From Bacteroidota bacterium (GTDB taxonomy: Bacteria; Bacteroidota; Bacteroidia; M30B66): 64,000 nucleotides of DNA. Below the pieces are notes generated by a model. It was not told where the DNA came from, ran no database searches, and saw nothing but the letters and a program-made list of their open reading frames with translations. The stretch's first letter is position 1, and each line of letters begins with the position of its first letter. The stretch is from NCBI GenBank assembly GCA_027490225.1, contig JAIXYK010000017.1, forward strand, positions 62,001 to 126,000, read 5' to 3'. This document shows positions 44,464 through 48,284 of this stretch, piece after piece. Made by a program: the position numbers and the translations under genes.

Positions 44464-45339
44464 ATGGCTTCAGGTTTTTTTGCAATTTTAGACGACATAG
44501 CTGCTTTGATGGATGACGTTGCCATAAACGCCAAGCTTGCAACAAAAAAAACTGCTGGTATACTAGGTGATGATTTAGCCGTAAATGCTGAAAAATCAAC
44601 CGGCTTTGTATCATCTAGAGAAATTCCAGTTTTGTGGGCCATTACAAAAGGTTCCTTTATCAATAAGTTGATTATTGTTCCTATAACTTTATTGCTGAAT
44701 GTTTTTTTACCAGCCGCCATAATCGTAATACTTATAATTGGAGGGTTTTACCTTGCATTTGAAGGAGTAGAAAAAATTGCAGAATATTTCTTTCATAAAA
44801 AACAACCTGCACAGCAAGCAGCTGTTGGTGAAATTAAAGAAGCTGCTGAATTGGAAAAAATAAAAATCAAATCAGCCGTAACCACCGACTTTATTCTTTC
44901 TGTTGAAATAGTAATTATAGCATTAAGTACGGTTTTAAACGAAAACTTAAGTATGCAAATTTTAACGGTATCGGTCGTTTCTGTAATTGCTACTGTAGGC
45001 GTTTATGGCATTGTTGCGCTGGTTGTTCGTATGGACGATTTTGGGTTTAAGCTGATTGAAAAATCGAAATCGAAAGGTTTTTTAAATATGCTGGGTCAGT
45101 TTTTAGTAAAAGCATTACCCATTTTTATCAAGATATTTTCGGTAGTTGGAACAATTGCATTGTTGCTTGTTTCGGGCGGCATATTTGCTCACAACATCGA
45201 ATATTTGCATCATATTTTATCTGGTTGGCCAAGCATTTTAAAAGAATTTTCTTTTGGAGTAATAGGCGGAATACTGGCCTTGGTTTTAATATCTATTGCC
45301 AAAAAAATTATTTCGCTATTTAAAAAGCAAAACAAATAG
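44464..45339 (+). CDS. DUF808 (YedI-like) inner-membrane protein
   Basis: MASGFFAILDDIAALMDDVAINAKLATKKTAGILGDDLAVNAEKSTGF...REIPVLWAITKGSFINKLIIVP; DUF808 family hallmark. Confidence 0.9.
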   Translation: MASGFFAILDDIAALMDDVAINAKLATKKTAGILGDDLAVNAEKSTGFVSSREIPVLWAITKGSFINKLIIVPITLLLNVFLPAAIIVILIIGGFYLAFEGVEKIAEYFFHKKQPAQQAAVGEIKEAAELEKIKIKSAVTTDFILSVEIVIIALSTVLNENLSMQILTVSVVSVIATVGVYGIVALVVRMDDFGFKLIEKSKSKGFLNMLGQFLVKALPIFIKIFSVVGTIALLLVSGGIFAHNIEYLHHILSGWPSILKEFSFGVIGGILALVLISIAKKIISLFKKQNK

Positions 45340-45460
45340 AATACCTTGTTTTTTTATAAGAAACTAGTGATGTGATGCATTAAAGGTTTTATGTGTAGCT
45401 TGAATTGTAGTTTTGACGCATTAAAATAGAAAATCAATTCTTCAATTTTTTAAATTTATT

Positions 45461-46138
45461 ATGATTATGAATTCTTTTAATGAAATGGGAAAACCAATGC
45501 AAGTAAACTTTAGACTTTTATCTTTTTGTTTTATTGTCTTTTCTAGTATGCTTCATGCTCAAAAAAACATTCCAACAGTGAAGATTGGTAAGCAAGTTTG
45601 GATGAGTAAAAACCTTAACACTTCAACTTTTAGAAACGGAGATGTTATTTTACACGCCAAAACAGATGAAATGTGGAAAATGGCGTATGAAAAAGAAATT
45701 CCAGCCTGGTGTTATTTTGGAAATGACGCTGAAAATGAATCAAAACTAGGTAAACTCTATAATTGGTTTGCAGTGAATGATGCGCGAGGCTTGGCTCCAA
45801 AAGGATTTCATGTGCCAAGTAAGGCAGAATGGGATATTTTAGTGTCATTTTTAGGTGGACAACCCGTAGCAGGAAAGAAAATGAAAAATAAAGAAGGTTG
45901 GCCGGATAATGGAAATGGTACCAATGAAAGTGGATTTTCAGGTCTTCCAGGAGGAATTCGGTTTTATGTAGGTTCCTTTGCAAAAGAACGCAAATATGGG
46001 CATTGGTGGACTTCAACAGCACTTCCACCTTTTTATGCATGGCAGTATTACCTGTTACATACTGATGACGGCATTGGCTTTTACAGCAAAGATTTCGGCA
46101 AAGGCACTGGATTGTCTGTTCGTTGTGTTTTAGATTAA
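45461..46138 (+). CDS. FISUMP-domain (Fibrobacter succinogenes major paralogous domain) protein
   Basis: VKIGKQVWMSKNLNTSTFRNGDVI...GKLYNWFAVNDARGLAPKGFHVPSKAEWD...WWTSTALPPFYAWQYYL. Confidence 0.88.
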   Translation: MIMNSFNEMGKPMQVNFRLLSFCFIVFSSMLHAQKNIPTVKIGKQVWMSKNLNTSTFRNGDVILHAKTDEMWKMAYEKEIPAWCYFGNDAENESKLGKLYNWFAVNDARGLAPKGFHVPSKAEWDILVSFLGGQPVAGKKMKNKEGWPDNGNGTNESGFSGLPGGIRFYVGSFAKERKYGHWWTSTALPPFYAWQYYLLHTDDGIGFYSKDFGKGTGLSVRCVLD

Positions 46139-46161
46139 ATTTTCAGCTCTTGGAATTTTTG

Positions 46162-46184
46162 TGAAACGTTATTTGCCTATTGCT
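46162..46184 (+). repeat. 23-nt exact duplicate of the SCO gene 5' end (remnant copy)
   Basis: TGAAACGTTATTTGCCTATTGCT identical to 46868-46890; lies on the far side of the TA module. Confidence 0.9.
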
Positions 46185-46255
46185 CTTTTAAGAATTTTCG
46201 GATTCATTTAAATAGAAATTCTATGATTTTAATTTATAAAATACTCCTAAGTGCT

Positions 46256-46555
46256 TTATAAAATTTCTCTTTTTTCTAAATCTCTTGCAGTATGGTGAAT
46301 GGTTAGAATATCAATTCTGTCAGAATCAATTATTTTGTAAATAATTCTATAATTTCCTACATTCAATTCTCTTATCTCAACGTCCCCTTTTTCTGGAACT
46401 TCTTTCCCCAATAAAGGAGCATTTTTCAAAAACTGTGTTCTTGTTTTTAGCTTTATCACCTCTAATTTAGCATATTTCTTTGAGTCTTTTGCGATAAACT
46501 CGTAAATGCTCTTCAAATCTAAAAGAGCTGTTTTTGTCCACCTTATTTGAACCAT
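46256..46555 (-). CDS. ParE/RelE-superfamily toxin
   Basis: MVQIRWTKTALLDLKSIYEFIAKDSKKYAKLEVIKLKTRTQFL...VPEKGDVEIRELNVGNYRIIYKI...ILTIHHTARDL. Confidence 0.9.
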   Translation of the reverse strand: MVQIRWTKTALLDLKSIYEFIAKDSKKYAKLEVIKLKTRTQFLKNAPLLGKEVPEKGDVEIRELNVGNYRIIYKIIDSDRIDILTIHHTARDLEKREIL

Positions 46556-46725
46556 TTTTCGAGCTCTTTTTCAAGTTCAGTTTCCGAAAATGTTTCTCCT
46601 TTTTCTGATTCTTTTTCAGCTCTCTCAATCTTGTCCAATAAAATCAACTTATCCATTAAATCGTCTAGCGAAAATTCTTCAGGAAGGGTTTCAATCGTTT
46701 CTTTTAATTGTTTCTTGCTTATCAT
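46543..46725 (-). CDS. Antitoxin of the adjacent ParE/RelE-type toxin
   Basis: 60-aa acidic ORF overlapping the toxin start by 13 nt; MISKKQLKETIETLPEEFSLDDLMDKLILLDKIE typical of Bacteroidota antitoxins. Confidence 0.82.
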   Translation of the reverse strand: MISKKQLKETIETLPEEFSLDDLMDKLILLDKIERAEKESEKGETFSETELEKELEKWFK

Positions 46726-46866
46726 AATTCTGAGGTTATGTCAAAGATACATTTAATTTCAATTTTTACTTATCATTTAACATCACCTTTTTCCTTTGCT
46801 GATTTTCCAAATTCTTCACAACCATTCAAGCCAAAGGTTGTTACTTTGTAGCACTTTAAATCATCT

Positions 46867-47541
46867 ATGAAACGTTATTTGCCTATTGCTTTGCCCATTT
46901 TGATTTTAATTGGAATGGTATTTTTTTATTTGAATGCTGATACTCATCAAAAACCATTTAAAACACTACCAATTTTAGGAAATCACAGGATTGATTCTGT
47001 GGAGGTAAATGGAAAAAAACAGTTAGATACAGTTTATCATACGGTAACAAATTTTGCATTTACCAATCAAGATGGTGAATTGGTTACCAAAAATGCTGTT
47101 GCAGGAAAGATTTATGTGTGTGATTATTTTTTCACAACCTGCAAAAGTATTTGTCCTGTTATGAGCAAACAACTCGATAGGGTTTATAAGGCGTATGAGA
47201 AAAACGATAAAGTAATGATTCTTTCGCATACAGTTGACCCAGAAACCGATACTCCGGCTCAGCTGAAAGAATATGCATCGCAATTTAAAGCCGACAACAA
47301 AAAATGGATTTTTTTAACGGGAGAAAAGCCAGCACTTTATGAAATGGCAAGAAAGAGTTATTTGCTCAATGCGGAAGAAGGAAACGGAGGAGAAGAAGAT
47401 TTTATCCATACCCAAAACTTTGCGCTGGTTGATGGCAAAGGCCGTATTAGAGGATTTTACGATGGCACCAAAACCAATGAAGTAGATTTATTAATTACCG
47501 ATATCGGTTTTTTATTGAAAGAATCTGAATTGGTGCAATAG
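46867..47541 (+). CDS. SCO family (SCO1/SenC/PrrC) protein
   Basis: YVCDYFFTTCKSICPVMSKQLDRVY (CxxxCP), SHTVDPETDTPAQLKEYA, DFIHTQNFALVD. Confidence 0.93.
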   Translation: MKRYLPIALPILILIGMVFFYLNADTHQKPFKTLPILGNHRIDSVEVNGKKQLDTVYHTVTNFAFTNQDGELVTKNAVAGKIYVCDYFFTTCKSICPVMSKQLDRVYKAYEKNDKVMILSHTVDPETDTPAQLKEYASQFKADNKKWIFLTGEKPALYEMARKSYLLNAEEGNGGEEDFIHTQNFALVDGKGRIRGFYDGTKTNEVDLLITDIGFLLKESELVQ

Positions 47542-47576
47542 CGAATTTTATATTTTAGCGCAAAATTTAAAACAAC

Positions 47577-48284
47577 ATGGGAAGAGCATTTGAATTTAGA
47601 CGCGCCAGAAAAGAAAAACGCTGGAGCAAAATGGCAAAGGACTTTGTGAAATTGGGGAAACTCATTTCTATTGCAGTAAAATCTGGCGGTCCAGACCCTG
47701 AAACAAATGCTCCATTGCGCGCTGCCATTCAAAATTGCAAGGCCATTAATATGCCGAAAGACAACATCGAATCGGCTATAAAACGTGCTTCTTCAAAAGA
47801 CGCAAAAGATTTAGACGAAGTTGTTTACGAAGGTTATGGACCTTATGGTGTTGCCGTTCTGGTAGAAACCGCCACAGATAACATCATGAGAACAGTTGCA
47901 AATGTTCGTATGTATTTCAACAGAGCAGAGGGAACTTTAGGAAAAACGGGTAGTTTGGATTTTATTTTCGACAGAAAAGCTTCTTTTAAGTTGAGCCCTG
48001 AAGGCATTGATATGGATGAACTAGAGCTGGAATTAATCGATTTCGGTTTGGAAGAGATTTTTGAAGAAGAAGGTGAAATTCATATTTACACTTCATTCAA
48101 AGATTATGGTACAATGATGACTGAAATTGAGCGAAGAAAGTTGTCAATTATCAGCTCAGAATTAGTTAGGTTGCCATCAACAACAGTAGAATTAACAGAA
48201 GAACAAGAAGAGGAAATCAATAAATTAGTTGAGAAACTCGAAGACGATGAGGATGTTCAGGCCGTTTTTACGAATATTAAATAA
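47577..48284 (+). CDS. YebC/PmpR family DNA-binding transcriptional regulator
   Basis: MGRAFEFRRARKEKRWSKMAKDFVKLGKLISIAVKSGGPDPETNAPLRAAIQNCKAINMPKDNIESAIKRA. Confidence 0.95.
   Translation: MGRAFEFRRARKEKRWSKMAKDFVKLGKLISIAVKSGGPDPETNAPLRAAIQNCKAINMPKDNIESAIKRASSKDAKDLDEVVYEGYGPYGVAVLVETATDNIMRTVANVRMYFNRAEGTLGKTGSLDFIFDRKASFKLSPEGIDMDELELELIDFGLEEIFEEEGEIHIYTSFKDYGTMMTEIERRKLSIISSELVRLPSTTVELTEEQEEEINKLVEKLEDDEDVQAVFTNIK

Follow-up and report, generated by a model that had tools for sequence, protein, structure and literature searches.

The SCO locus and its repeated gene start

The window, by which we mean the whole 64-kb stretch of DNA that was analysed, carries a small toxin–antitoxin (TA) operon between a FISUMP-domain gene and an SCO1/SenC gene, which we refer to as SCO. 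The features of this part of the window are the following.

45461 to 46138, plus strand: FISUMP-domain gene (Fib_succ_major; PF09603, E = 2.3e-42), the upstream neighbour
46161 to 46211, plus strand: remnant of the SCO gene start, reading GTG, KRYLPIA, LLRIFGFI and a stop; its duplicated part, 46162-46184, ends with KRYLPIA and is an exact 23-nt match
46185 to 46867, no strand assigned: the putative inserted segment between the repeat copies, 683 bp (706 bp with one repeat copy)
46256 to 46555, minus strand: ParE/RelE-superfamily toxin, 99 aa (PF05016, E = 7e-18; TIGR02385 RelE_StbE)
46543 to 46725, minus strand: antitoxin, 60 aa, overlapping the start of the toxin (an ORF, with a similar ORF in the homologue of G002)
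46742 to 46749, minus strand: TATCTTTG, predicted Bacteroidota -7 promoter box (TAnnTTTG), which starts 24 nt ahead of the ATG of the antitoxin
46867 to 47541, plus strand: intact SCO1/SenC gene, 224 aa (PF02630, E = 1.4e-29), with the second repeat copy at its 5′ end (46868-46890)
47577 to 48284, plus strand: YebC/PmpR gene (family match), from which the gene order is conserved with G008 onwards

By the family of the toxin and the small upstream antitoxin ORF, which overlaps the toxin ORF by 13 nt, the pair is a predicted type II ParE/RelE toxin–antitoxin system. The toxin scores 35.6 bits against TIGR02385 RelE_StbE (cut-off 27.9) and has a weak match in the PDB (6x0a, E = 2.4e-4). The 60-aa antitoxin is not named by Pfam, NCBIfam or PADLOC, and a similar antitoxin of 60 aa accompanies the toxin homologue in G002. 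The sequence TATCTTTG fits TAnnTTTG, which we take to be the consensus of the Bacteroidota -7 box. This motif precedes 37 of 109 homologous antitoxins at a distance of up to 90 nt, compared with its presence in 4% of random 90-mers. The two TA genes are the only recognisable genes of the 683-bp segment and, with a -7 box, an antitoxin and a toxin of its own, the unit looks autonomous. Its G+C content is 29.4%, against 36.0% for the window. A search of the region against Rfam gave no match at the gathering score.

The original prediction held that this pair lies between two exact copies of the first nucleotides of SCO and that such a match is very unlikely to arise by chance in 64 kb, and on both points our analysis agrees with it. 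The 23-mer TGAAACGTTATTTGCCTATTGCT is an exact direct repeat with copies at 46162-46184 and 46868-46890, offset by 706 bp, and both the toxin and the antitoxin lie wholly inside the bracket. No other exact direct repeat in the window is as long, the runner-up measuring 19 nt, and the longest repeats in simulated 64-kb sequences (order-4 Markov, n = 15) were of 15-21 nt and never reached 23 nt. By chance one would expect about 1e-4 pairs of 23 nt in 64 kb, a number that falls to about 4e-6 for the whole window if the spacing is limited to at most 1 kb. The right copy begins at base 2 of the SCO ATG. At the left copy the reading frame is GTG-KRYLPIALLRIFGFI-stop, an abandoned remnant of 16 codons whose GTG follows the FISUMP stop codon after 22 nt; which of the two start codons, the GTG of the left copy or the ATG of the right, was that of the ancestral SCO is uncertain.

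Across the 66 contigs (3.77 Mb) of the genome the 23-mer has just these two copies, even with up to 3 mismatches allowed, and the absence of a third copy rules out an origin of the left copy as an unrelated dispersed repeat, a reading that the original prediction had set against itself. Past the 23 nt, the similarity between the sequences beside the two copies is not significant upstream and borderline at best downstream, and this lack of a convincing alignment argues for a clean short copy and not for a decayed long one.

Since the gene order is kept with G008 rightwards from YebC, it is on the side of SCO that the locus varies. Within positions 44464-48284 of the window, the genes left of YebC, namely those for the DUF808 protein, FISUMP and SCO, have no syntenic counterpart in members of the family, and the DUF808 neighbour gene was not found in the relatives. 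The variability on the SCO side of the locus thus reaches beyond the TA pair. The genomes compared were one of the genus and 10 of the family and order. In none of nine relatives of the same family does SCO adjoin this TA pair, FISUMP or YebC; the SCO genes of these relatives are mostly 50-65% identical and stand in other neighbourhoods. Because SCO is never syntenic in them, the empty site of the window itself was not seen. A relative that lacks the TA pair and nevertheless carries both 23-nt copies was not found among them either. The case for an insertion in the window is therefore argued in part by analogy, from its own scar together with the homologous loci, and by the same analogy FISUMP would be the ancestral upstream neighbour of SCO.

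Flanking repeats and empty sites at homologous loci

Homologous toxins were gathered from the class and the phylum, and the flanking DNA of each locus was compared by local alignment of both flanks of each pair, with mismatched flanks and with control placements in the same genome set as nulls. With the window's own score as threshold, 16 of 111 loci, the window being included by construction, have matched flanking repeats of at least the window's strength. Placements of the same size in 361 kb of the same genome set gave 13 in 2220, which come down to 7 distinct repeats. Fisher's test of loci against control placements gives about 1e-14, a figure that is indicative only because the placements overlap. 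An origin of the TA-flanking repeats in generally repeat-rich host genomes is unsupported by these same-set controls. The other 95 of the 111 TA loci are without such flanking repeats, which counts against the reading of an insertion in the window.

At six of the 16 strong loci the repeat is a gene-end duplication, with the TA pair between an intact gene and a dead remnant of it. Gene names outside the window were read from translations, and most of the genomes are apparently draft or metagenome assemblies.

Window: SCO 5′ end; 23 nt, exact
G053/L112: cyclase 5′ end; 49/56 nt, beginning exactly at the ATG
G390/L109: prmA 3′ end plus 24 nt; 114/118
G072/L114: 3′ end of a T9SS-tail gene; 26 exact nt that run to the stop codon; the stop of the toxin lies inside the repeat
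G214/L125: phosphoglycerate kinase (pgk) 3′ end; ~61 nt
G582/L230: 3′ end of an oxidoreductase-like gene; ~183 nt

The duplications thus measure 23, 26-51, 56, ~61, 118 and ~183 nt, and their sequences differ from locus to locus. That the 23 nt of the window are the shortest of the six also counts against the insertion reading, as do the GTG of the left copy, which makes the ancestral start codon uncertain, and the failure to see an empty site at the window's own locus. The remaining strong repeats are attC-like or otherwise intergenic (G002, L128 and others). The 7 control repeats lie in or between long genes or are intergenic, and the gene-end and remnant pattern is absent from them.

Two of the six gene-end cases, the cyclase 5′ end (56 nt) and the prmA 3′ end (118 nt), have an empty site in a congener. 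G053 has the geometry of the window, with an upstream gene, a remnant, the TA pair and the intact cyclase gene in this order; in its congener G154 the upstream gene (ending VKK-stop) is joined directly to the intact cyclase gene, and both the TA pair and the remnant are absent. In genus g135, three genomes (G390, G400 and G401) have the order prmA, TA pair, prmA remnant and rluD. In G398 of the same genus, prmA runs into ...CCATAGAAAGTCTAATAATAAAC before rluD, which is the sequence found past the remnant in the other three, and here the junction of the 118-nt duplication can be seen at the level of the base. The prmA tree of this genus does not separate a gain of the TA pair from its clean loss through the repeats, and this must be counted against the insertion reading; the duplicated prmA end is nonetheless that of the target, whether G398 never had the TA pair or lost it.

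Some further observations were made at the homologous loci. L164 (G401) and L165 (G400) are both missing ~90 nt that G390 has in the interval from the prmA end to the antitoxin. In G401 there are also private variants common to both copies of the prmA end, which suggest that the repeats have undergone gene conversion with each other in this genome. At L134 1663-3145 (G242) a 51-nt exact repeat, its copies 1430 bp apart, surrounds the TA pair and further sequence, and may represent a similar but larger insertion. The TA pairs of L203 and L213, from two genomes of one genus (G430 and G723), are bracketed by one repeat family, CGAGTACTGCTGACCGTCATCGCCCGCGAA, possibly an attC-like or other cassette site. 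One of the control hits, L275 7802-8464 (G353), has a small four-helix-bundle-like gene between two similar intergenic repeats, and this gene may be another small mobile one.

The closest homologue of the TA pair (L082 9722-11509 in G002, contig C12; 71% identical at the DNA level across 470 bp) is flanked by repeats of 154 nt, which have GCTAAC...GTTAGC ends and the look of integron attC sites, and the unit next to it has a methyltransferase-like gene. This homologue seems to be an integron cassette. No integrase above the cut-off was found, and the single-strand fold of the repeat has an attC-like stem layout that is no better than that of shuffles. The homology with the G002 pair has no counterpart to the 118 nt between 46750 and SCO, a further point against the insertion reading.

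Probable insertion at the gene end and its alternatives

Copies of target sequence stand on both sides of the TA operon; they are specific to each locus in length and in sequence, and the target gene is intact. The preferred explanation, to which we would give a probability of about three in four, is that SCO received a bare TA operon at its 5′ end and that the first 23 nt of the gene were duplicated in the process, a long and variable target duplication of this kind keeping the target whole. It is favoured by the exact repeat that brackets the TA pair and has an abandoned gene start as one of its copies, by the excess of flanking repeats at homologous loci over controls together with the six gene-end duplications, by the empty sites in the congeners G154 and G398, and by the low G+C content of the insert. 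The original prediction is thereby supported in part. Its proposal that the TA pair inserted at the SCO 5′ end and that the gene start was regenerated gains strong backing by analogy, from the cyclase of G053 and G154 and from the base-level empty site of prmA in G398; the empty site it expected at the window itself was not seen in the nine family relatives, where SCO is non-syntenic.

As to the course of such an insertion, a break with long overhangs may have captured a fragment that carried the TA operon, or the fragment may have entered through one homologous and one illegitimate junction. The gene end is present twice, and it could have been doubled either by fill-in or by a second copy of the gene. 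The copy beside FISUMP would then have become the dead remnant, and the copy across the TA pair would have kept SCO whole, with its ATG start and a new leader. The six cases suggest that the survivors are those insertions that spared the target gene, which would place the scars at gene ends. The direct repeats could allow a clean loss of the TA pair by recombination, a loss that TA addiction should counter.

The homologous route is a version of the preferred explanation and not an alternative to it, so that our confidence in the one overlaps with that in the other. It would have a fragment from another strain, with the TA pair upstream of SCO, recombine inside SCO and form an illegitimate joint after codon 8 of the resident gene. 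A replacement anchored in this way explains why the repeat starts at the start codon without similarity upstream, and the cyclase copies of G053, whose 7 differences in 56 are mostly synonymous or I/L, are allele-like. However, a donor is required that already had the TA pair beside the same gene, which merely shifts the question, and the prmA locus agrees with its empty site on either flank, its two copies sharing 114 of 118 positions. The scar left by this route is identical to that of capture at a break, and the data do not separate the two; we regard the homologous route as possible, if somewhat unlikely. More doubtful still is that minimal TA operons spread through Bacteroidota by a dedicated and novel route, which would place them at gene ends and duplicate the end. 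If this were true, the TA pairs would themselves be the mobile units, without transposase, integrase or terminal repeats.

The original prediction had likened the arrangement to integrative elements that restore the gene they target, and this comparison fared less well. In its specific form, a tyrosine recombinase supplied in trans would have integrated a small cassette (att, XerCD/dif or attC), with the 23 nt as attachment site and the gene start restored. The geometry of remnant, element and regenerated gene end fits such an event, the nearest TA homologue is flanked by the 154-nt attC-like repeats of G002, and dif modules with TA genes are known from Acinetobacter (PMC6449649). Against this, the lack of a third genomic copy of the 23-mer at up to 3 mismatches means that it is neither the chromosomal dif nor a sequence with other sites in the genome; an XerCD dif module was rejected on this ground and because the homologous loci carry unrelated repeats. 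An integron integrase stays below the cut-off in the genome of the window (best 73 bits vs 265), where the search met only generic tyrosine recombinases. By inspection there is no attC-like sequence at the window locus, and the 683-bp insert has no recognisable integrase gene, as an ICE or IME would. The duplications, from 23 to ~183 nt, copy whichever gene end adjoins and have no common att-like sequence. We consider site-specific integration to be quite improbable.

We judge equally improbable that the left copy is due to chance or to an unrelated small duplication, for example by template switching, independent of the arrival of the TA pair. Short tandem-like duplications do occur, and the empty site was not seen at the window locus; however, chance would give only about 4e-6 such pairs at a spacing of up to 1 kb, the TA pair sits exactly between the copies, and the pattern recurs at five more of the homologous loci, whereas size-matched controls lack it. 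That SCO was anciently duplicated in tandem, the left copy decaying and receiving the TA pair later, is very improbable, for although a direct duplication of the gene start is indeed seen, decay would give graded similarity and not 23/23 identity with nothing convincingly alignable beside it.

Relation to known modes of insertion

The entry of solitary TA operons into chromosomes has long been a puzzle, as they are called mobile and the mechanism is usually not visible. Scars that mark both junctions, taken together with empty sites in congeners, make the insertion of a TA pair testable. The survey of PMC2701414 noted fresh TA insertions, and the terms "direct repeat" and "target duplication" are absent from it. 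In the open-access literature we found no published report of insertion with long target duplication for TA pairs.

The sections of PMC2654758 that deal with TA islets describe ccdO157 of Escherichia coli as a chromosomal type II TA genomic islet. Like the unit described here, it is a lone TA operon with no mobile element at a variable chromosomal site; those sections mention no target duplication for it, whereas the scars reported here give the junctions directly. The TA cassettes of super-integrons, as the same source presents them, resemble our unit in that a whole operon with its own promoter forms one small unit, but the window locus has neither an attC-like site nor an integron integrase. 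The XerCD dif modules of Acinetobacter (PMC6449649) are likewise small units within short repeats, some with TA genes. Unlike these modules, which share one conserved site sequence, each locus described here has a different repeat, and that repeat is a piece of the neighbouring gene.

The closest parallel in kind comes from restriction-modification (RM) systems. Their insertion duplicates the target over a long and variable length, on the order of 100 bp (Nobusato et al. 2000; Furuta et al. 2010; reviews in PMC3874152 and PMC3031569). As described there, such insertions have in common with ours a small addictive unit, no transposase, long variable target repeats and recognition against close empty sites. 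The differences are that here the unit is a type II TA operon of ~0.5 kb in Bacteroidota, that six scars copy a gene end and leave the gene intact, and that the duplication in the window, of 23 nt, is shorter than the order of 100 bp given there for RM systems. RM systems, the other classical addiction modules, were proposed 25 years ago to insert with such duplications, and this mode would here be extended to toxin–antitoxin pairs.
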